NCBI GenBank assembly: GCA_016928995.1
Contig: JAFGJS010000092.1
Location: forward strand, 1 to 34,447
Length of the DNA: 34,447 nucleotides
Reading direction: 5' to 3'
Origin: Candidatus Sumerlaeota bacterium
GTDB taxonomy: Bacteria; Sumerlaeota; Sumerlaeia; JAFGJS01
Shown one piece after another: positions 9,301 through 21,616 of this stretch (positions are counted from its first letter, which is position 1; every line of letters starts with the position of its first letter). Both the position numbers and the translations under genes were made by a program. A model generated the notes under the pieces. The model saw nothing but the letters and a program-made list of their open reading frames with translations, was not told the DNA's origin and searched no databases.

Positions 9301-9787
9301 CACATTCGATCCAAGCACGACAACGACATACACAGCGACGCTGGAAATTACGACAGATGATCCGGATGAGGCGCAGGTGGATGTTCCGCTGACCGGAGTG
9401 GGAACGGAAACCCCGGAGCCGGAAATTTCCGCCGCTCCCGGTTCGTTGGACTTCGGCGAGCTCGACATCTACGCCGGTCCCAGCGCCGCGATGAGCATCA
9501 CAATCGAAAACACCGGCAATGCGGCGCTGGAAATCAGCGCGCTTGAATTCGCGGTGAATCCGGGCGGAATCTTCCAGTTCGAAAGCTTTCCGGGCCTGCC
9601 CACGTTGGATCCAACGGAGACGTTGGAGTTTTACGTGCTGTGCGATCCTGAAGCGGAGGGCGAAGCGAGCGGGACGTTGCGGATTCAATCCAACGACAAC
9701 GATGAAGCCACGATCGACATTCCGCTGAGCGTGACCGGCACTCTGCCGCCTCCCAACCAGGCGATGCATTGGCTGCTGTATTATTAG
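6341..9787 (+). CDS. Secreted M6-family (immune inhibitor A-like) metalloprotease with choice-of-anchor-D repeats
   Basis: This is an extracellular zinc protease of 1148 aa. The ATG at 6341 follows GAGGGG and opens a signal peptide (about residues 1-26, ending near SVADPV); an in-frame TTG at 6284 would spoil it. After a propeptide-like region, the M6 catalytic domain shows the zinc motif HENGH at 315-319 followed by 'GFPDLYDYG', as in immune inhibitor A. A jelly-roll/MAM-like segment follows at about 625-795. Then come three repeats of about 105 residues, each beginning P-[ED]-I-S-[VA]-[AS]-P and containing 'xFGxxxI', characteristic of choice-of-anchor-D/ASH-like domains. The chain ends with a proline triplet and the terminal HWLLYY, similar to the end of the GH78 protein. 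A single-gene unit, probably controlled from the long gap upstream. Confidence 0.88.
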   Translation: MRFNYLKLRIIIYIALVISIRQSVADPVAGKIFKDIQQDGSVIPVRVWGDEFYRVVESLDGYTLVRDKAQKTTYYASPETKGTRLGSTGIPLRQGDAPLAELKALGVTPHLRLEPEIVEQIVANGRARLLSGDTDLMSGRVSARATSTGDVVGITLLIDFSDDTWTIAAAEFDSFLNSASYSNYGNNGSVWSYFNEVSNGHLNYTNYVGSSYYRAQNTKAYYISNDAALALVVEALEDLDDSGFNFADYDSDSDGNIDAVNVFYAGEPDSPWGQGLWPHMYSSTLAFFTASDGTKARAYQMTNIGTSPSIGTFCHENGHLICGFPDLYDYGYESYGVGSWCHMAFGTSSTNPCYYCAPLRIEAGWMDNLTELTTPQSDIPCATQSDVCYIYYNSLRPSTEYFVIENRKKSGRDAGLPGEGLAIWHVDLLGSNNYEQMTTLLHYRVSLEQADGDFDLENKNNYGDTGDLYYTGNVTEFSDATTPDANWWAGGTSDLWIHSVSASSDTMTFDFGESGSIYIAPITFEANGLEGGPFQPTSADYTLSNNSGETHDWSASVDVAWLELTAYAGTLNDGSATIVTASLNTTVNSLAVGTHTGTITFIDETTSDTTEADVTVNVYDIPSNTFLYFDLETDPGWSTAGDWAYGQPTGGGGAASGDNYGNPDPATGRFGLNVYGYNLSGNYANNLTPARILQTTALDCTDYENIHLNFWRWLNVEEGQYDQAEIYVSSNGVTWTLVWENPTYADVEDSDWTQVDYDISAIADGQATVYIRWTLTTDESYRFCGWNIDEIALTGINTNVPTPEISVAPLSLNFGDQRIDLGASAPSSFTITNIGDADLEFTSIEITGDSSSAFSFTATPSTASLSASESRTYYVTFDPDAEGAHSGTTVHIASNDPYSPTDAPSLSGNGLLPPDISVSPSEIDFGERNIDTGPSIQYPVTVYNTGGAPLEILSITIAGNTDSAFAFYHDPPDTSDIPAGGSRAYQITFDPSTTTTYTATLEITTDDPDEAQVDVPLTGVGTETPEPEISAAPGSLDFGELDIYAGPSAAMSITIENTGNAALEISALEFAVNPGGIFQFESFPGLPTLDPTETLEFYVLCDPEAEGEASGTLRIQSNDNDEATIDIPLSVTGTLPPPNQAMHWLLYY

Positions 9788-9825
9788 CGTCAGCGAATGA
9801 CATGCGCAAATTTCCATTTTAATGC

Positions 9826-9853
9826 TTGACACACGGCGCTCAGAGCTTAGGGT
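9826..9853 (+). promoter_or_regulatory. Sigma-70-type promoter for the lysine leader
   Basis: A perfect -35 TTGACA at 9826-9831 is followed after 16 bases by TAGGGT at 9848-9853, a weak -10. Transcription would begin near 9860 and run through the leader ORF at 9886 and the terminator at 9998 into homocitrate synthase. Confidence 0.45.
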
Positions 9854-9885
9854 GCCACCAATTCATTCGATAAAAAAAACGAAAA

Positions 9886-9969
9886 ATGCACTTTACGCCC
9901 AAACGCAAACCGAAGAAAGATAAGCGTGCTTCGACAGCAACAGCGAGGCGGCGGCGGGAGGCGCATTGA
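9886..9969 (+). CDS. Lys/Arg-rich 27-aa putative leader peptide of the lysine operon
   Basis: An ATG at 9886 opens a 27-codon frame ending in TGA at 9967-9969. Five lysine codons lie within eight positions (9901, 9907, 9913, 9916, 9922), followed by arginine codons including three CGG in a row (9949-9957). The frame lies between a promoter and a terminator directly upstream of homocitrate synthase, where a transcription-attenuation leader would be expected. Weak point: no clear Shine-Dalgarno sequence precedes the ATG (the upstream stretch is A-rich). If real, stalling at the Lys codons would signal lysine shortage. A chance ORF is the alternative. Confidence 0.4.
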   Translation: MHFTPKRKPKKDKRASTATARRRREAH

Positions 9970-9997
9970 GCGCCGGATCAACCGGGAATAAAGCAAA

Positions 9998-10027
9998 AGT
10001 CCGCTGCCTTGCGCAGCGGGCTTTTTT
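9998..10027 (+). terminator. Rho-independent terminator / candidate attenuator before homocitrate synthase
   Basis: A 10-bp stem (9998-10007 with 10013-10022, one T-G pair) with a 5-base loop runs into a T-tract ending at 10027. Its 5' arm (10000-10008) can instead pair over 9 positions (two G-U) with 9950-9958 inside the leader ORF, so terminator and antiterminator exclude each other. It could also simply end transcripts from the protease gene upstream. Confidence 0.8.
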
Positions 10028-10085
10028 AGCATCAAGCCCCGCCCGAAACCAGCGGAGCCATTGATCAATATCCATCGGAGAAATC

Positions 10086-11264
10086 ATGACCACTGAACGA
10101 GCTACATCGATTAAGGAATTCAAAATCGTAGACAGCACCCTGCGCGAGGGCGAACAGTTCGCCGGGGCGCGCTTCACAACCAAGGATAAAATCAAGATCG
10201 CCAAGGCTCTGGACGCATTTGGCGTGGAGTACATCGAGCTCAGCAGCCCGATGTCCTCGCCGATCAGTTTCCAGGACCATATCATTCTGGTCGATCTGGG
10301 GCTTAAGGCCACGCTCGTGCCGCACTTGCGTTGCGCCAGGGAGGACATCGACAAGGCGCTGGCGACCGGCGTGAAGAGCATCAACATGATGTTCGCCACC
10401 TCGCCGGTCCTGCAGCAATACAGCCACGGGAAAAACATGGACTATATCGTCCGGCAGGCCGCGGACATGACCAAGTACATCAAGGACAAAGGGCTGGAGG
10501 TTCGCTTCAGCGGCGAGGACGCCTTCCGCAGCAACCTGGAAGATCTCGACCGGGTGTTCGCCGCGGTGATCGAGGCCGGCGCCGACCGCATCGGCATTCC
10601 CGACACCGTCGGCCGCTCGACGCCGTTCGAGGTCTACGAAGTGTTCCGCCATTTCCGCGAGATTTTCCCCAATGTCGATATCGAGTTTCATTGCCATAAC
10701 GACACGGGCTGCGCCGTGGCCAACGCCTGGGCCGCGCTCGAAGCGGGCTGCACGCATATCGACGTGACGGTGCTGGGCATCGGCGAGCGCAACGGCATCA
10801 CGCCGCTGGGCGGCCTGATCGCCCGCATGTACGCCATTGATAAGGGCCTCGTAAAGAAGTATAAACTGAAAAAACTGCGCGAGCTGGACGAGCTGGTCGC
10901 GAAAATGGTAGGCTTCCCGATTCCCTTCAACAATTACATCACAAGCCCGACAGCCTTCCATCATCGCGCCGGCATTCATACAAACGCGTTGTTGAAAAGC
11001 GCATCAAGCTATGAAATTTTCGACCTGGATGATTTCGGCGTGACGCGCAAGATCGACGTCGCGCACCGCCTGATCGGCAAGAACGCGATCAAGGCCCGCG
11101 CGGCCCAGCTGAAATTGGATCTGGACGAAGCGGAATTGCACGAAATCACCTGGGAGATCAAGACTATGTCCGACCAGGAGCTGCTCACGGACGACTACGT
11201 GGACAACCTGTTGACCGAAGCGGCGCAAAAAAACGGACGGAATCCGAATTTGCCAGTGAAATAG
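10086..11264 (+). CDS. hcs: Homocitrate synthase (first step of alpha-aminoadipate lysine pathway)
   Basis: The enzyme condenses 2-oxoglutarate and acetyl-CoA to homocitrate. It belongs to the DRE-TIM metallolyase fold: 'DSTLREGEQF' at about 16-25 carries the metal-binding Asp and catalytic Arg, HCHND at 202-206 gives two metal-ligand histidines, and 'GIGERNGITPLGG' and 'FHHRAGIHTNALL' follow. The wording 'EGEQFAGARF' and 'GVEYIELSSP' fits the LYS20/Thermus homocitrate synthases better than isopropylmalate synthase or NifV. The length of 392 aa lacks the long regulatory LeuA domain of isopropylmalate synthase. The start has GGAG seven bases upstream. lysW follows after 55 bases and lysX after that, which supports the lysine assignment. 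Expression may be controlled by the attenuator at 9886-10027. Confidence 0.9.
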   Translation: MTTERATSIKEFKIVDSTLREGEQFAGARFTTKDKIKIAKALDAFGVEYIELSSPMSSPISFQDHIILVDLGLKATLVPHLRCAREDIDKALATGVKSINMMFATSPVLQQYSHGKNMDYIVRQAADMTKYIKDKGLEVRFSGEDAFRSNLEDLDRVFAAVIEAGADRIGIPDTVGRSTPFEVYEVFRHFREIFPNVDIEFHCHNDTGCAVANAWAALEAGCTHIDVTVLGIGERNGITPLGGLIARMYAIDKGLVKKYKLKKLRELDELVAKMVGFPIPFNNYITSPTAFHHRAGIHTNALLKSASSYEIFDLDDFGVTRKIDVAHRLIGKNAIKARAAQLKLDLDEAELHEITWEIKTMSDQELLTDDYVDNLLTEAAQKNGRNPNLPVK

Positions 11265-11319: not shown

Positions 11320-11484
11320 ATGGAATTCACCTGTCCCGTGTGCGAAGCGGAAATCGAATTGGAAGATGTGGAAGAAGGGGAAATCGTCCCCTGCCCGGAT
11401 TGCGGCGCCGAACTTGAAGTCGTCAGCCTCGATCCGCCGGAACTCACCGAAGCCCCGGAAGAGGAAGAAGACTGGGGCGAATGA
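11320..11484 (+). CDS. lysW: LysW, amino-group carrier protein for lysine biosynthesis
   Basis: This 54-aa acidic protein is the carrier on which alpha-aminoadipate is modified: LysX joins the substrate amino group to the gamma-carboxyl of the C-terminal glutamate. The sequence shows the zinc ribbon CPVC (5-8) and CPDC (25-28) and the hallmark C-terminal EDWGE. The ATG at 11320 follows an AAGGAA stretch. The gene sits between homocitrate synthase and lysX, as expected. Everything that defines the family is present, including length. A strong hairpin follows 13 bases after the stop. Confidence 0.95.
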
Positions 11485-11497
11485 GAAGAGTGGAATC

Positions 11498-11700: not shown

Positions 11701-12545
<845 letters not shown>

Positions 12546-12549
<4 letters not shown>

Positions 12550-15005
12550 ATATCGCCAATCACTTCATACGTGATTGGATGCTCTTCTGCCTAATATTGC
12601 TCCCGAACCAGTTTTCGCATACGGAACCACTGAAACCGGATTCTCCCATGAAACCAGCAACTCCGCTCGATGGATCTTTCAAGATGGGAACCGCGATTGA
12701 TCCTGACGGCGGCTCAATCACAGTGAACAGCCGTTATCTCCTGAAAAACGGATCGCCGTGGTTTCCGGTCATGGGGGAATTCCACTATTCACGCTATCCT
12801 GAAAATGAATGGCGCGATGAGCTGCTGAAAATGAAAGCGGGCGGCATCGATATCGCGGCCACATACATCTTCTGGATCCATCACGAAGAGGAAGAAGGCG
12901 TCTATCGCTGGGACGGGCGGCGCGATTTAAGGCGATTCGTCGAACTCTGCCAGGAGACCGGCTTGCTGGCCGTTTTGCGAATCGGCCCCTGGTGTCATGG
13001 CGAAGTCCGCAATGGCGGGCTCCCCGACTGGCTGCTGGAGAAAGGTCTCCGGACGAGGAGCAACGACGACGTGTATCTAAACTACGTCGAACGATTCTTT
13101 CACGAAATCTCTCAACAAACCGAAGGGTTGTTCTGGAAAGATGGCGGTCCGGTCATCGGCGTGCAGATCGAAAACGAATTTCGCGGACCGGCTGAACATC
13201 TGATGCGGCTCAAGGAAATCGCCGTCAGGGCCGGTCTGGATGCGCCGCTTTACACGCGCACCGGATGGCCGGACTTGACCTCTCCGATCGCACCGGGAGA
13301 GTTCCTGCCGCTCTCCGGCGCCTATGCCGAAGGTTTCTGGGACCGATCCATCGAGTCCATGCCCGGCAAATTCTGGCGCACGTTCATCTTCGAGAAAGTC
13401 CGCTCCACCGGCGCCATTGGCACCGATCAACTCGGCGAGCAGGCGCCATCATCGTCGCCCGATTACGACTGGCATCCATACCTGACGTGCGAGATGGGCG
13501 GCGGCATGATGTCGAGCTACCACCGGCGAATCTTCTTCTACCCCATGGACGCCTTGAGCGCGATCCTGGTCAAGATCGGCTCCGGCAGCAATCTTCCGGG
13601 ATATTACATGTATCATGGCGGAACGAATCCCGACGGCAAACTCTCCACATTGCATGAATCGCAAGCGACGAAATATCACAACGACCTGCCCGTGATGAGC
13701 TACGATTTTCAAGCGCCGCTCGGTGAATTCGGCCAACTCCGGGATCATTATCATCTGTTGCGCCGCCTGCATCTGTTCCTGCATGACTTCGGCGCGGAAT
13801 TGGCCGGAATGTCAGCGGATTTCCCGGCGCAATCGCCCGAGGACAAAAACGATGCGGAGACGCCGCGCTGGGCCGTTCGCAGCAACGGGGAAAGCGGATA
13901 TGTCTTTGTCAATAATTACCAGCGCCTGCTGCCCATGCCGCCGAAACCGGACGTGTCTTTCGATCTCCCTCTAGAAAGCGGAACGTTGCACATGCCAGCA
14001 AAGCCGGTCACGGTTCCCGCCAACACATGCTTCTATTGGCCGTTCAACCTGGATCTTGACGGCGTCCGTCTCGTTTACGCCACCGCGCAACCCATCTGCC
14101 GTCTCCAAGACGCGGAGACAACGTACGCCTTCTTTTCAGCGATCCCGGAGATTCCTGTGGAATTTGCAATCGAGTCGAAGAATGTCAAATTCGAAACGGC
14201 TGGCGACGTTGAAACGACGACGGCTGGACAGACGATCATCCAAAACCTGACACCCGGACTTCAGCCAGCCGTCCAAATTGAAAAGCAAGATGGCAAAAAA
14301 ATATATATCATCCTGTTGGATGAAACTGCGTCATTGCATTGCTGGAAGGAAAAAATCGGCGGATGTGAGCATGTCATCCTCACATCAGCCGGGCTGATTA
14401 ATGATGGCGGCAAGCTGCGTTTAACCTCGGAAAATCCAGCGGAACTGAGTCTTTCCATGCTGCCGGCGCCGGATGCGTTGAGCTGCGGCGATCAAACGAT
14501 CAAGCCGGTTAGCGACGGTGTTTTTTCACATTACGATCTCCCCTGCCCCGCGGCCTTAAAGACAGCGATCCACTTTGAAAAAATCAAAGATGCGGAACCT
14601 CCGCGTGAAATCAGAAACGGCTCCGCAGGCGTCGCCGAAGCGCCGTCTGATGAAGAATATTATCAAGCCGCTGTTTGGTCGATCCAGTTCCCGGAAGACA
14701 TCAATCCCGGCGATGATCTGCTGTTGCGCGTCTGGCACACCGGAGATGTGGCGCGCTTTACCCTTGATGGCAAATTGCTCACCGACAATTTTTATAACGG
14801 CAAACCCTTCGATCTTGGGCTCAAACATTACGCCCCTGAAATCTATCATGGTTTGTTGCAGTTTGAAGCGCTTCCCATGCGCCAGGATGCGCCGATTCTG
14901 ATTCCCGCCGAAGCTCAACCTGATTTCGAAGAAAAGCAAAGCGCGCTCGAAATCCATCGCATGGAAATCATCAAACGCCACACCATTGAGTTGCGTGTTC
15001 ATTAA
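12546..15005 (+). CDS. Secreted glycoside hydrolase family 35 (beta-galactosidase-like)
   Basis: This 819-aa protein begins with an N-terminal hydrophobic signal segment (about residues 8-24). The catalytic TIM barrel follows: '[13 protein letters not shown]', '[19 protein letters not shown]' and 'GVQIENEF', where N210-E211 would be the acid/base. The probable nucleophile is E316 in 'LTCEMGGG', and '[12 protein letters not shown]' comes after it. These are GH35 hallmarks; the family mostly removes terminal beta-galactose from plant side chains. The C-terminal third contains beta-rich accessory domains. The ATG lies inside the end of lysX (4-base overlap), with AAGAGG upstream, so translation may be coupled although the functions are unrelated. 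It is followed by a 430-base gap. The precise substrate is inferred from the GH78 and esterase neighbours. Confidence 0.88.
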
Positions 15006-15434
15006 CGCATCGCAAATTCCGATCAAACAAACAGCACACAACCGAAATTAAATGTTGTCGTACAAGTGCGATCATTATATATTGATCTCACCTTAATAAA
15101 AAGACTGATATGAGATGCAAACTGCGCCAGACGTTTGATGCAAATAAACGTTTATCGCATTTTGATTGTTTGTATTCCATTATAACACCACGAAAAATAA
15201 CAGGCTGCATGAAAGTGATAATTACTGGTGATTGAAAATAACATTCGTCCAACAAGCTGAATGTTTTTTTATTAAAATCATTGGATCAACTCATGCACTA
15301 ATCAAGTCCATGTTTATAGCAAGCAAGACCAAGCGTAAGCAGTGGTGCGCAGGTCAAATCTGTAAACGTTTTACGTGGTGAAAAATCAAGATATGGCTTT
15401 CCATCAATCATCTCCGAGGGGAGGAAATTGTTTC
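15006..15434. other. AT-rich regulatory gap before the GH78 gene
   Basis: No gene is visible. The gap contains a perfect 12-bp palindrome ATAAACGTTTAT at 15144-15155 and a TGTAAACG dyad at 15361-15374. TATAAC at 15181-15186 could be a -10 element, but I found no convincing -35 at the right distance. The GH78 gene is therefore probably transcribed from its own regulated promoter rather than from the lysX unit. Confidence 0.5.
15361..15374. promoter_or_regulatory. LacI-family-type operator-like dyad upstream of the GH78 gene
   Basis: TGTAAACGTTTTAC has the same left half-site as the dyad at 6057 (TGTAAACG) and an imperfect right half. It lies 61 bases before the chosen ATG, a good place for a repressor. 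No regulator gene is in the window. Confidence 0.4.
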
Positions 15435-18400
15435 ATGCTGCGTAACATTCAATCTACTATTTGCATCGTAATACTGCTCTGTTCGGGGGCGCTGATGTGG
15501 GGAGCGCCCGAAATCACGCAGGTCAACATCATTAATGCGGACACTGACGCCGTCATCAGGACATTACAGGATGAAGACGTCGTCAACCTAGCCGTGACTG
15601 GCGAAAATCTGAACATGCAGGCGGTCGTCAATGGAGAAACCGCGAGTGTTTTATTCTCATTGGACGATGATCCATATTATCGAACCGAAAGTTTTGCGCC
15701 GTATGCCCTGGCCGGCGATGATGGCGCGGGAGATTTTTACGCCTGGACGCCGCCGCGCGGCCCGCATTACCTGACGGTGATCCCGTTTGACACGACCGGT
15801 GCAACCGGAACGAGCGGCGAGCCGGTCTCGTTCTATTTCAACGTGGTGGACGATGAACCGGACGCTCCGAGCGGCTTGCTCTGCGAACTCTTCGCCTATC
15901 CGGAACGCGTAGAGATCAACGACACCACGCCGGAGTTTTCATGGATTGTGAATTCCGATCTGGAAAATGATTACCAGACGGCGTGCCGCATCCTGGTCGC
16001 TTCGAGCGAAGCCCAGCTCGACAGCAACATTGGCGACATGTGGGACAGCGGCAAGACAGCCACCACGCAGTCGGTCAGCATGGAGTACGGCGGCTCTGCA
16101 CTCAGCGCCAGCACGACGTACTACTGGAAAGTGATGACGTGGGATAAAACCGATTCGGCCAGCGCATGGTCCTCAACCCAGGAGTTCAACACATCAGCCG
16201 GATTGGGAACTTATGATTACGGCGATAGCTATCCCTTGAATCTCTCGCGCGCCTATCTTGAACTCACCCACCGTTATCCTGTGCGCGTGGTGGAGATTGG
16301 AAGCGGGCATTATTTCATCGATTTCGGCAAGGACGCTGTCGGTTGGGCTCAATTGCGGCTCGACAGTTCAGTCAGCGAGACCATCACCTTCCATCTTGGC
16401 GAAGCGGCCGACGGCGACAGCGTCGATTCTTCCCCTGGCGGCACAATCCGGTATTCAGTCGACACGAAATCAATCAGCGCTGGATTGGCAACCTACGAAT
16501 TGCGGGCGACCGGCCCAAATCCAGATCTTTATGGCAACGCCGTTGACACTCCTGCCGAATACGGACGGATCACGCCGTTCCGTTATGTTGAAATCGAAAA
16601 CTGCTCGACAGAAGTCACCACAGCTTCCATATCACAGGTGATTCTATGCTATCCTTTTGATTTTCAGGCCGCATCCTTCGTCTCATCGGACGACATTCTC
16701 AACCAAGTCTGGGAACTTTGCCGTTACAGCATGTTCGCGACAAACTTCCTTGGCGTTTTCATCGACGGCGACCGCGAACGCACACCGTATGAAGCGGACG
16801 CCTATATCAATCAATTGACCTATTACGCCGCCGATCGCGAGTTCACCATCTCGCGTTACACCAATGAATACCTGTTTGATCATTCGACCTGGCCGTTTGA
16901 ATGGAAACAGCATACAATCATGCAAAGCCATGCGGATTACCTCTACACCGGCGACACAGATTCGATCGTGGAATACTATAGCGCGCTCGAATCGTCTAAA
17001 TTGCAAACATCTTATGCGCGCTCTTCGGATGGCTTGCTCGATACAAGCGGCACAACGGACGAAATCGTGGACTGGCCCAGCGGCGAGCGCGATGGATATG
17101 ACTTCAGGGCGATCAACACTGTGGTAAACGCCTTTTATTATAAGAACCTCTGCCAAATGGCGGAAATGGCGGACGCCATCGGCAACACGACGGAAGCGGA
17201 GGATTTCCGCACTTCGGCGACGGCGATCAAGACCGCCTTCAACAACGCCCTGCTTAACACCGGCTCAGGATATTACGTGGACGGCGAAGGCTCTTCGCAT
17301 TCTTCGCTGCACGCCAATATGTTCCCACTGGCCTTCGGACTCGTTCCGGATGCATACAAGGACTCTGTCATCGCGTTCATCGAATCGCGCGGCATGGCGT
17401 GCAGCGTGTACGGCGCGCAGTACCTGCTCGACTCGCTCTATCTGGCCGGCGAGGATGATTACGCCTTGAGCCTGATGAACTCGACGTCGATGCGCAGCTG
17501 GTACAACATGATCGCTTCCGGTTCGACAATCACGATGGAAGCCTGGGACATCGCATACAAAAGCAACCTGGACTGGAACCACGCCTGGGGCGCGGCGGCG
17601 GGCAACGCCATCTCGCGTCATCTGCTGGGCCTGCAACCAATATCAGCGGGATTTGAGCACGCCCGCATTTATCCGCAGCTCGGATCGCTGAGTTTCGCGG
17701 AAGGAACCATCCCCACGATTCGCGGATCGGTGGATATCAGCGTCCATCAGACGGATTACTCCTGGCGCCTGAACACAACGACCCCGGCCAACATGTACGC
17801 CGACATTGTGATGCCGAAACTGGGCGCCACGCCCGTGGTGGTGATGGACGGCGCGCTGACATCGGCCACGGAGGAAAACGACACGCTGATCATCGAAACG
17901 GTCGGCTCCGGCGATCATGAGTTCATCGTGCTGGAAAGCGTGCGCGGACTCGATCCGTGGATCGTCGCGTCCGTGGATCCGTTCACCACGCAATCCATCG
18001 GCGCCTTGACCACGGACACCGTGACAGTGACTTTATACAACGCCGGCATCTCTACGCTGACGCTGACGCAATTGACGCTGGACAAAGGAACATACACAAC
18101 CGACGGCCTGGCGCTGGATCTCACGGGCCTTACGCTGCCCGGCGAGAATGTTCCGCCCGGCGAATCGATTCAATTCACCGTGGACTGGCGTCCGGCGGCG
18201 TACCCCGGATCGCGCGACTTTCAGATTCTGGTGGACAGCAATGATCCAGATGACGATCCGATCGCGCTGAGCGGAGCTGTGCTGGCGCCGATGTCGGCAG
18301 AGCCTCGGGTTCCATATACGGTGGACTCCTACACGCTGCATTTGTACCACCTTGATGAGTCCAGCGGTACGACTTCGGCGGACGCCGTCACTCCGGGTCT

Positions 18401-20384
18401 GGACGTCACATCGGTGACGGGCGGCGCGGCGCTTGGCGCAACGTCATACAGCGGTTTTGATCTGGCGCTCGACACTTCTTCCACGGCCTCCGATGACGCT
18501 CGCGCGGAGATCGGCGGCGGCGACGCCGTGGCGACAACCAGTTTCTGGGATCAGACCACGGGCGCATTCACCTACGAGGCGCTGATCTACATGAATTTCG
18601 ATCCCAATCCCGGCAATGAGTCAGGACGAACGGTAGCCATGCAGATTTTCTCGATGGACGATGACAGCGGAGACCGGCCATTCCAATGGCGCCTAGTTCC
18701 TCCGGGGCACGCGGAAAATTCAAGCGCTACGACCTATGCCATGCAATTCATCAATATTGACGGCGGACAGACAATCTCAACTGTCTTGCCGACAACCGGC
18801 GATCATGCCGCCGGGCAAGACGTGTGGTATCATGTGGCGATGACATATACGGGCGTTTCCGAAGCGGATAACTTCAAATACTACTGGACCCGTATGGACA
18901 GCAATGCCGTGGAAGCCAATGAGCTATATTCCACAATGATGACCTCGGATTTAAGTTCAACCAATGGCGATCCATGCATTGGCAATGAACTTCGAAGCAC
19001 AGCGACGGACAACTTCGACGGATTGATCGACGAGGTGCGCATCAGCGACATCGCCCGCGGCGCGGACGACATGCTGTTTTCCGGCGTCACGGCCTCATAT
19101 GTGCAGAATGTCGTCGTCATCGACGCCGACACCGTCAAGGTCGTCTTCAGCAAGGCGATGGGAACGGACGCGCTGCTCGCCGCTTCCTATACGCTCAGCG
19201 GATCGGGACAGGGAACGCTTAACTCGCAGCCGGACACGGTTGATTACATCACGACAGGAACCTATCAGATCAACTGGAGTTCCGGAGAAATGACCATCGG
19301 CGGCGACATCGTCATCAACGTCGCCACAATCGAGGATGCGGACGGCGCTGATCTCGCGGAGCCTTCGAGCGGCGCGGACGATGGCGCGGGAATCGGCGGA
19401 GAACCCACGGCCACGATGACCCTGCCGACCAGCGGAACGGCGTATACTGCCGGCGCTGATGTGACGCTGGCCTGGAGCGCAACTGACGACGTGGCCGGAG
19501 TCGATTACGTGCGCATCTACTATCAACGCGACGGCGGCGCGGCGACCGAGCTCGACGGCAGCCCATTTGACGCCGGCATCTCAACCACCACGACGCAGTT
19601 CCTCCTGCCGGGTTCTTATGAACTCTATGCCGTCGCCACCGACCTGGCGGGCAATGAGGAAGTCACCGATCCCGATGCGGACCGAATCCTGATCCAGATC
19701 AATCCGGGACCGCCCCTCGTGCAGCAAGTCGAAGTGATCGACGCCGATACGATTGAAGTCGTTTTCAGCAACGCAATGGGTCCGGATGCGCTCGATCCCG
19801 CTTCGTATACTCTAAGCGGCTCCGGTCAAGGTACATTCGACGCGCAGCCAGCTTCGGTGACCGGCGTTTCCACGAACACGTATCGTCTGAACTGGACTGC
19901 GCAGGAAATGACCATCGGCGGCGACATCACGATCACTGTCGCCACGATCCAGGATACGTTGGGCGCCGATCTCGTGGAGCCGAAGAGCGGCACGGACGCA
20001 GGCGCGGGAATCGGCGGAGAACCCACGGCCACGATGAACCAGCCGGCCAGCGGTTCGATATTCGAGACCAATCAGGATGTCACGCTGGGCTGGAGCGCAA
20101 CGGACGACGTGGCCGGAATCGATATCGTCAGCATCTATTATCAGCGCAACGGCGGCGCAATCACGGAACTCAGCGGCAGTCCCTTTGACGTGCTGCAAAC
20201 CTCCGTCGTGACGCAATTCTCGCTGAGCGGCATATATGAAATTTACGCCGTCGCAACCGACCTGGCGGGCAACGAGGAGACTGCCGATCCCGATCTGGAT
20301 ATAATCACGATCGAGATCGAAACACCGGAGCCTCCTCCACCGGGAAGACGAAACGCCGCCAGTGATCGATGGCTACTCTATTAA
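15435..20384 (+). CDS. Secreted multidomain alpha-L-rhamnosidase-like glycosidase (GH78 type)
   Basis: The ATG at 15435 follows GGGGAGGA and opens a signal peptide (about 1-23); a GTG at 15375 in frame would add 20 polar residues and is rejected. Ig/Fn3-like domains and a beta-sandwich precede the (alpha/alpha)6 catalytic domain. It contains 'DGDRERTPYEAD' from about 443, where GH78 places its general acid, and 'TITMEAWD' with E702 in the place of the catalytic base. 'HAWGAAAGNAISRHLLGLQP' then leads into the usual C-terminal beta domain. Next come an ASH-like domain, a LamG/concanavalin-like domain and two near-identical 206-residue units from 1223 and 1429, each a Big_5-like plus an Ig-like domain. 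The chain (1649 aa) ends Pro-rich, then RWLLY. It probably cleaves alpha-L-rhamnose from pectin-type polymers; the exact linkage is unproven. A strong terminator follows. Confidence 0.8.
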   Translation: MLRNIQSTICIVILLCSGALMWGAPEITQVNIINADTDAVIRTLQDEDVVNLAVTGENLNMQAVVNGETASVLFSLDDDPYYRTESFAPYALAGDDGAGDFYAWTPPRGPHYLTVIPFDTTGATGTSGEPVSFYFNVVDDEPDAPSGLLCELFAYPERVEINDTTPEFSWIVNSDLENDYQTACRILVASSEAQLDSNIGDMWDSGKTATTQSVSMEYGGSALSASTTYYWKVMTWDKTDSASAWSSTQEFNTSAGLGTYDYGDSYPLNLSRAYLELTHRYPVRVVEIGSGHYFIDFGKDAVGWAQLRLDSSVSETITFHLGEAADGDSVDSSPGGTIRYSVDTKSISAGLATYELRATGPNPDLYGNAVDTPAEYGRITPFRYVEIENCSTEVTTASISQVILCYPFDFQAASFVSSDDILNQVWELCRYSMFATNFLGVFIDGDRERTPYEADAYINQLTYYAADREFTISRYTNEYLFDHSTWPFEWKQHTIMQSHADYLYTGDTDSIVEYYSALESSKLQTSYARSSDGLLDTSGTTDEIVDWPSGERDGYDFRAINTVVNAFYYKNLCQMAEMADAIGNTTEAEDFRTSATAIKTAFNNALLNTGSGYYVDGEGSSHSSLHANMFPLAFGLVPDAYKDSVIAFIESRGMACSVYGAQYLLDSLYLAGEDDYALSLMNSTSMRSWYNMIASGSTITMEAWDIAYKSNLDWNHAWGAAAGNAISRHLLGLQPISAGFEHARIYPQLGSLSFAEGTIPTIRGSVDISVHQTDYSWRLNTTTPANMYADIVMPKLGATPVVVMDGALTSATEENDTLIIETVGSGDHEFIVLESVRGLDPWIVASVDPFTTQSIGALTTDTVTVTLYNAGISTLTLTQLTLDKGTYTTDGLALDLTGLTLPGENVPPGESIQFTVDWRPAAYPGSRDFQILVDSNDPDDDPIALSGAVLAPMSAEPRVPYTVDSYTLHLYHLDESSGTTSADAVTPGLDVTSVTGGAALGATSYSGFDLALDTSSTASDDARAEIGGGDAVATTSFWDQTTGAFTYEALIYMNFDPNPGNESGRTVAMQIFSMDDDSGDRPFQWRLVPPGHAENSSATTYAMQFINIDGGQTISTVLPTTGDHAAGQDVWYHVAMTYTGVSEADNFKYYWTRMDSNAVEANELYSTMMTSDLSSTNGDPCIGNELRSTATDNFDGLIDEVRISDIARGADDMLFSGVTASYVQNVVVIDADTVKVVFSKAMGTDALLAASYTLSGSGQGTLNSQPDTVDYITTGTYQINWSSGEMTIGGDIVINVATIEDADGADLAEPSSGADDGAGIGGEPTATMTLPTSGTAYTAGADVTLAWSATDDVAGVDYVRIYYQRDGGAATELDGSPFDAGISTTTTQFLLPGSYELYAVATDLAGNEEVTDPDADRILIQINPGPPLVQQVEVIDADTIEVVFSNAMGPDALDPASYTLSGSGQGTFDAQPASVTGVSTNTYRLNWTAQEMTIGGDITITVATIQDTLGADLVEPKSGTDAGAGIGGEPTATMNQPASGSIFETNQDVTLGWSATDDVAGIDIVSIYYQRNGGAITELSGSPFDVLQTSVVTQFSLSGIYEIYAVATDLAGNEETADPDLDIITIEIETPEPPPPGRRNAASDRWLLY
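19101..20325 (+). repeat. In-gene tandem duplication, period 618 bases
   Basis: Units 19101-19718 and 19719 to about 20325 encode the same Big_5-like/Ig-like pair ('VxVIDADTxxVVFSxAMGxDAL', 'IGGEPTATM', 'LAGNEE'). DNA identity is high in places; a segment of about 30 bases around GGAATCGGCGGAGAACCC is identical. A recent duplication of the stalk domain is the simplest reading. Confidence 0.85.
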
Positions 20385-20566: not shown

Positions 20567-21616
20567 ATGGCTGAGAAAATTCAGGCCTCGATTATCGGGG
20601 CGTCGGGATACGCCGGCGGGGAACTGCTGCGGCTGCTGCTGGATCATCCGCATGTCGAGGTGAAACAGGCGACCAGCGAGCAACACCAGACGAAATTCGT
20701 GCATGCGATTCATCCGAATTTGCGCGGACGAACGCAGCTCAAGTTCGTCTCCGCCGCCCAGATCGAGGAGTGCGATTTTCTTTTTGTCTCGCTGCCGCAC
20801 GGCTCGGCGTCATCCAAGATGCCGGAGCTGGTGAAACTGGCGCCGAAGGTGATCGACCTCTCGGCCGATCATCGTCTGCGCGACGTGGCGGCGTATGAGC
20901 AATGGTACGGCGAACCGCATCCGCATCCGGATATCAATGCGCAGTTCGTGTACGGCGTGCCGGAGGTGAACCGCGAGGCGTTGCGCGAGGCGAAATGGGC
21001 CTCGGGCGCAGGCTGCAACGGCACGGCGACGCAGCTGGGGCTGCTGCCATTCAAACGGGCGGGTGTGGAGATCGTTTCGGCGCTGGCGGACATCAAGGCG
21101 GGATCGAGCGAATCGGGCAACAAGCCCAATCTTGGCTCGCACCATCCGGAGCGCAGCGGCTGCGTGCGTTCGTTCGCGCCCACGGGCCACCGGCACACGG
21201 CCGAAGTGCAGCAGACCATGGGTTGGACGCGCGACGATGCGCGGATCCAGATGTCGGTGACGGCAATTGAGATGGTTCGCGGCGTGCTGGCCACGATCCA
21301 TGTGCAGCCCAAGGAGAAACTGGAAGAAAAGGATCTTTGGAAAATTTTCCGCGGAGCGTACAAAGACGAGCCGTTCGTGCGCATCGTGAAAGACCGGCAA
21401 GGGATCTACCGCTTTCCCGAGCCGAAAATTCTATCCGGCTCGAATTACTGCGACGTGGGATTTGATGTGGACCCGCAGACCGGCCGCGTAGTGGTGATCA
21501 GCGCGATCGACAACCTGATGAAGGGCGCGGCGGGAAACTGCGTGCAGGCGATGAACGTAATGATGGGCTGGAACGAATCGGCCGGTCTTGGTTTTCCCGG
21601 TCTGCATCCCGTCTGA
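20567..21616 (+). CDS. lysY: LysY/ArgC-type N-acyl-aminoadipyl/glutamyl-phosphate reductase
   Basis: This NADPH-dependent reductase turns the LysW-bound aminoadipyl phosphate into the semialdehyde. The N-terminal Rossmann motif GASGYAGGEL (11-20), 'DLSADHRLRD', the active-site cysteine C150 in 'SGAGCNGTAT', 'GHRHTAEVQQ' and the C-terminal 'NLMKGAAGNCVQAMN' are those of the ArgC/LysY family. The 'GAGCNGTAT' active site (ArgC usually has 'NPGCYPTA') and the ending 'GFPGLHPV' favour LysY. 349 aa is normal. The start follows GGGGACGG. The gene is separated from hcs-lysW-lysX by two glycosidase genes and a terminator, so it has its own promoter. A dual role in arginine synthesis is possible. Confidence 0.88.
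   Translation: MAEKIQASIIGASGYAGGELLRLLLDHPHVEVKQATSEQHQTKFVHAIHPNLRGRTQLKFVSAAQIEECDFLFVSLPHGSASSKMPELVKLAPKVIDLSADHRLRDVAAYEQWYGEPHPHPDINAQFVYGVPEVNREALREAKWASGAGCNGTATQLGLLPFKRAGVEIVSALADIKAGSSESGNKPNLGSHHPERSGCVRSFAPTGHRHTAEVQQTMGWTRDDARIQMSVTAIEMVRGVLATIHVQPKEKLEEKDLWKIFRGAYKDEPFVRIVKDRQGIYRFPEPKILSGSNYCDVGFDVDPQTGRVVVISAIDNLMKGAAGNCVQAMNVMMGWNESAGLGFPGLHPV

Follow-up and report, generated by a model that had tools for sequence, protein, structure and literature searches.

The homocitrate synthase gene hcs of a Candidatus Sumerlaeota bacterium is preceded by a short Lys-rich open reading frame (ORF) and a strong hairpin, which raises the question of whether this leader is a switch that adjusts transcription of a biosynthetic operon to the supply of lysine, or an ordinary terminator belonging to the gene upstream. 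In this study, we analyzed the whole stretch of 34,447 nucleotides that carries the locus (contig JAFGJS010000092.1, hereafter the window). Sequence comparison and folding suggest, with a probability that we put at about 0.88, that positions 9826-10027 constitute an attenuator of hcs-lysW-lysX transcription in which the ribosome senses the supply of charged tRNA-Lys. A lysine attenuator had already been proposed in the first-pass annotation of this DNA, and the proposal is strongly supported by homologous loci, its mechanism being right as far as sequence can show.

Leader region and downstream genes

The first gene behind the leader, hcs (10086-11264, forward strand), scores above the curated cut-off of the homocitrate synthase model TIGR02146, and its best solved relatives are the homocitrate synthases 3ivs, 2ztj and 3a9i. 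On the same strand follow lysW (11321-11485), which encodes an amino-group carrier protein (PF21344) with the C-terminus EDWGE, and lysX (11701-12549), which encodes a LysW-aminoadipate ligase above the curated cut-off of TIGR02144 with the LysX-type enzymes 3vpd and 1uc8 as best solved relatives. No match to lysA was found in the genome of the window, which is about 92% complete, while the gene was found in 13 of 14 control genomes, and lysA is likely to be truly missing. Because of the matches of hcs, lysW and lysX together with the absence of lysA, lysine made via the LysW/aminoadipate route is the likely product of this pathway. Directly downstream of lysX lie a gene for a GH35-type glycosidase and then one for a very long rhamnosidase-like protein (window positions 12546-20384), with an argC/lysY-like gene at 20567-21616; the lysine operon of the window seems to be interrupted relative to the order hcs-lysW-lysX-lysY-lysZ of loci L161 and L162.

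The ORF of 27 codons with five Lys codons in eight positions that had been noticed earlier is present at 9886-9969 on the forward strand (MHFTPKRKPKKDKRASTATARRRREAH, with the stop codon at 9967), and its putative sensor codons are K6, K8, K10, K11 and K13 (9901-9924). The encoded peptide is strongly basic, with 5 Lys and 6 Arg in 27 residues, four of the Arg forming one run. Inspection of the window leader revealed no Shine-Dalgarno sequence before the ATG, a weak point conceded from the outset. The TTGACA promoter of the first-pass annotation survives in part: a -35 element is found at 9826-9831, but the -10-like TAGGGT at 9848-9853, behind a 16-nt spacer, is weak and was missed by a consensus scan, which found no full promoter and no promoter-like site within 9700-10200. 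Between the ORF and hcs lies an intrinsic terminator (9996-10027) with a stem of 9996-10007/10013-10024, a loop of 10008-10012 and a U run at 10022-10027; its core is the 10-bp stem previously placed at 9998-10022 (9998-10007/10013-10022), is extendable to 12 bp and is worth -19.6 kcal/mol. A small hairpin, GGCGC-auuga-GCGCC, folds around the leader stop codon (9960-9974), and the 241-nt leader as a whole has a folding z of -2.0. As in a ribosome-mediated attenuator, a leader ORF enriched in Lys stands before genes of lysine synthesis, with a terminator between ORF and hcs.

The combination is rare by chance. Of 1000 dinucleotide shuffles of 9826-10085, a single one produced an ORF in which five or more of eight codons are Lys, and no shuffle combined such an ORF with a terminator; on both strands of the 34-kb window, this is the sole place where a terminator follows a short ORF with four or more Lys in eight codons.

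Competing helices and the position of the ribosome

The antiterminator had been drawn between 9950-9958 and 10000-10008. This pairing exists, but as a minor register with a probability of about 0.00-0.06 at most ribosome positions, whereas in folds that mask the RNA under the ribosome a register of 12 bp, two of them G-U, dominates, joining 9943-9954 (GCGAGGCGGCGG) to 10001-10012. The 3' strand of this helix is a segment shared with the 5' arm and loop of the terminator, its loop holds the small hairpin around the stop codon, and the second register is possible because of the CGG repeat. With the RNA folded up to 10012, that is, before the 3' arm of the terminator, the favoured register had a probability of 0.93-0.99, both in the absence of a ribosome and for most Lys codons placed in the A site (K11 gave 0.60, against 0.38 for the minor register), and fell from 0.99 with the ribosome at K13 to 0.08 at the stop codon, where neither register exceeded 0.08. 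The terminator 5' arm was sequestered in the antiterminator with a probability of 0.73 when the ribosome sat on the Lys codons and of 0.11 when it sat at the stop. The antiterminator thus overlaps the terminator and is computed to be free while the sensor codons are read and blocked at the stop codon, which bears out the mutual exclusivity claimed for the two structures.

Once the full leader is transcribed, the terminator is the equilibrium winner at every ribosome position, and therefore the switch has to work kinetically, as trp-type attenuators are generally agreed to do. When no ribosome is present the antiterminator is predicted to form, so that untranslated transcripts would read through; in contrast, an untranslated trp leader terminates, and the window apparently has no counterpart of the trp 1:2 protector hairpin.

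We infer translation of the ORF, stalling, termination and a response to lysine as follows. Transcription would start near 9860, and the leader peptide would be translated as it is made. If charged tRNA-Lys were scarce, the ribosome would stall at codons 6-13 (9901-9924) and leave 9943-9954 free to pair with 10001-10012 before the terminator 3' arm is made; with the antiterminator formed there would be no terminator, and RNA polymerase would continue into hcs. If lysine were ample, the ribosome would reach the stop codon and cover about 9952-9981, the antiterminator would be lost, the terminator stem at 9996-10024 would form and transcription would end near 10027.

The masking calculation was extended to 81 loci, a set including Thermus-type loci, which the model handles poorly; sequestration dropped by more than 0.2 from the last Lys codon to the stop in 30 and rose in 7. 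Counted from the first base of the last Lys codon, the distance to the antiterminator start is about 20 nt in the window and about 12 nt at Thermus-type loci, a shorter spacing at which the model performs poorly. At L003, a relative from the phylum of the window, the leader stop lies 18 nt further downstream, a ribosome at the stop misses the antiterminator and the model no longer switches. The leaders of L003 and of a second relative, L004, are nearly identical, but the TGA of L004 is CGA in L003, and L004 still switches.

Recurrence of the leader upstream of hcs

An alignment of the leader in relatives had been suggested as a check. We searched for hcs in the phylum of the window (40 genomes), in the G057 phylum, in the classes of G093, G098 and G479 and in a set of 386 genomes sampled across the domain; the 128 distinct regions upstream of hcs were then scanned. 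Of these, 79 contain an ORF with three or more Lys in eight codons, 72 have a terminator behind it, and 60 have in addition an antiterminator at least as stable as -20 kcal/mol, the search for which was extended 14 nt upstream of the core terminator arm to capture Thermus-type helices, which begin just upstream of that arm. A control scan of both strands of 1.06 Mb of other DNA from the fetched loci gave about 10 matches, several of them antisense of hcs leaders. The suggested check thus speaks for the attenuator: ORF, antiterminator and terminator are conserved before hcs at homologous operons, where the sequence differs and the pairing is kept. No attenuator was found upstream of hcs in f193 (actinobacterial-looking), f69, f78, f88, f91 and L032/L033; one close relative, L005, has hcs with neither leader nor terminator upstream.

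In the phylum of the window, L003 and L004 encode homocitrate synthases 71% identical to that of the window within operons of the order hcs-lysW-lysX-lysY-lysZ (lysY and lysZ named from translations). Their leaders are rich in Lys and Arg (..AKEKPSGIKKRRPIIGRR..), and GGGCGGCGG/CCGCCGCCC forms an antiterminator of 9 bp without mismatch over the terminator arm. The leaders of the window and L003 share 7 of 18 residues (E 0.067, for very short sequences). An Acido-Lenti-1 RNA (RF01687) match lies near hcs of L004 (429-473, reverse strand).

A second group comes from the class of G098, which we read as Chloroflexia from gene content and GC. These leaders follow the pattern ..KQxKRxKKPxxRSG with the stop next, hold about four Lys and few Arg, and keep tandem Lys codons in 40 of 43 cases (AAG AAG in 27, AAA AAA in 7, AAA AAG in 5 and AAG AAA in 1); an obvious Shine-Dalgarno sequence was absent in 31 of the 43. 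The terminator arm CTCACCAGACC is the pairing partner of their last codons, CGG TCT GGT TAG. In the alignment 92.3% of the cells of this antiterminator helix are paired, against at most 37% when it is slid, and two pairs are changed on both sides, covariation being modest because the core is mostly invariant. The terminator is paired in 93.1% of cells, with covariation above that of 500 of 500 shuffles. A second antiterminator helix of these leaders shows covariation by eye (CTTGCAC/GTGTAGG versus CTTGTCT/AGACAAG) and was left out of the covariation count, its MAFFT columns being out of register.

Thermus-type leaders form a third group. They have 14-15 codons (e.g. MLAREKKLGRRGVG and a stop), AAA AAA is present in 34 of 34, and their antiterminator, CGGGGGGTAGG.../...TTATCCCCCGG, extends into the terminator arm. 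Among these loci, the L063 enzyme is nearly identical to the homocitrate synthase of PDB 2ztj/3a9i, which we take to be that of T. thermophilus. The window shares with this type Lys codons and an antiterminator within one ribosome footprint, placed before hcs. Apart from the Lys codons, the peptides of the different lineages have no sequence in common, and the leaders compared between them, at 14-30 residues, are too short to infer ancestry.

Two further short ORFs were observed during the survey. In about 36 loci (L007, L040-L042, L044, L047-L062, L093, L095-L099, L103-L105, L108, L112-L115 and L118) the interval from the attenuator terminator to hcs holds a conserved ORF of about 35 codons, which reads ..AYTPRYCRPELFGSCQVR.. 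(variant ..HRPAAVRPELFTGCSCGR..) and overlaps the hcs start in L007 (about 1383-1500); it has no Pfam match and is absent from the window. In L015, upstream of a leuA-type gene (about 1230, reverse strand), a leader-like ORF ending ..VKKIGLLLSLLLLKARPGAFREG before its stop is followed by strong hairpins and looks like a leucine attenuator. No convincing leucine leader was found before the two leuA-like genes in the genome of the window.

Alternative readings and known lysine switches

While the preferred reading has lysine as the single input, a two-input switch might be considered, in which Lys shortage would open hcs-lysW and stalling on the CGG run, which coincides with the antiterminator, would shut it; we regard this as improbable, but if true, such a leader would compare charged tRNA-Lys with charged tRNA-Arg, and with them the lysine and arginine branches.

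Less probable still, the hairpin may be an ordinary intrinsic terminator of an upstream transcript, with an ORF arisen by chance and the hcs promoter downstream of the hairpin. In its favour, a same-strand gene ends at 9787, about 210 nt before the hairpin, and the leader has no Shine-Dalgarno sequence. However, the promoter scan found no site in 9700-10200, the joint occurrence of Lys-rich ORF, antiterminator and terminator at hcs in three lineages is far more frequent than in the control, and the distance from TTGACA to leader start (60 nt in the window, 60 in L003 and 61 in L004) points to a promoter before the leader rather than past the hairpin.

A similarly small chance is given to a leader that responds to arginine, alone or with lysine, where stalling at Arg codons would be the signal. 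The six Arg codons, four of them in a run, and the Arg codons found after the Lys codons in L003, L004 and Thermus-type leaders are consistent with it, and in some archaea carriers of the LysW type can act in the synthesis of arginine. The first-pass annotation had allowed such a response on condition that LysW serves both pathways. Through the CGG run it is disfavoured: a ribosome stopped at R21-R24 would cover the antiterminator, and a shortage of Arg there would end transcription. The Chloroflexia-type leaders, with their few Arg codons, the first gene hcs, which belongs to lysine synthesis, and the apparent Lys specificity of a T-box at the same site in L034 also argue against arginine; a minor Arg effect through R7 and R14, located among the Lys codons, is possible. 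Least probable of all is a TnaC-type or similar arrest in which the nascent peptide, perhaps with free lysine as ligand, stalls the ribosome, since, for all the basic character of the peptide and the conserved C-terminal RSG of Chloroflexia leaders as a potential arrest motif, the RSG codons are explained by antiterminator pairing and the peptides differ outside the Lys codons between lineages, down to the weak match of window and L003.

Taken as a lysine attenuator, the locus resembles several known systems. In 2005, Tsubouchi and colleagues reportedly described that transcription of the lysine biosynthetic gene cluster of Thermus thermophilus is attenuated through a leader peptide. The earlier statement that no such attenuation was known for a LysW-type lysine operon would then be mistaken, and the window attenuator a new example of a switch type already described in Thermus. 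Both have hcs as first gene, Lys codons in a short leader, an antiterminator just past these codons and a terminator before hcs, but the window belongs to another phylum, its hcs is about 52% identical, its leader has 27 codons instead of 14 with five Lys in eight instead of a tandem pair, and the helices have no common sequence. With the enteric trp and his attenuators it shares a leader rich in the regulated amino acid and an exclusive antiterminator and terminator, and differs in amino acid (Lys), pathway, phylum and sequence.

Two other RNA devices serve lysine genes without a leader peptide. In the relatives L034-L036, T-box motifs stand upstream of hcs in place of the leader; that of L034 is above the Rfam threshold (RF00230) with specifier AAG (Lys), read from the alignment. 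Gene and signal, charged tRNA-Lys, would be the same, but a T-box binds the tRNA directly, and no covariance match to RF00230 was found in the window. The lysine riboswitch (L-box, RF00168) likewise attenuates lysine genes but binds lysine directly, and was matched neither in the window nor in any of the 16 loci scanned. When the window was compared with Rfam to find known leaders, two tRNAs were the only hits, and in the scans of the window and 16 loci no Rfam family covers a Lys leader-peptide attenuator. A literature search of limited coverage, and hence weak evidence, found no paper on a Lys attenuator for Chloroflexia or the phylum of the window.

Our results suggest that Thermus is not alone in using a Lys leader peptide for attenuation, and that at least three lineages have this type of control at the committed step of the bacterial aminoadipate route, with a T-box replacing it in another. 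The strict conservation of Lys codons and helices provides a signature for finding further lysine-controlled operons, and this signature could help to decide whether the LysW-type clusters of poorly known phyla make lysine.
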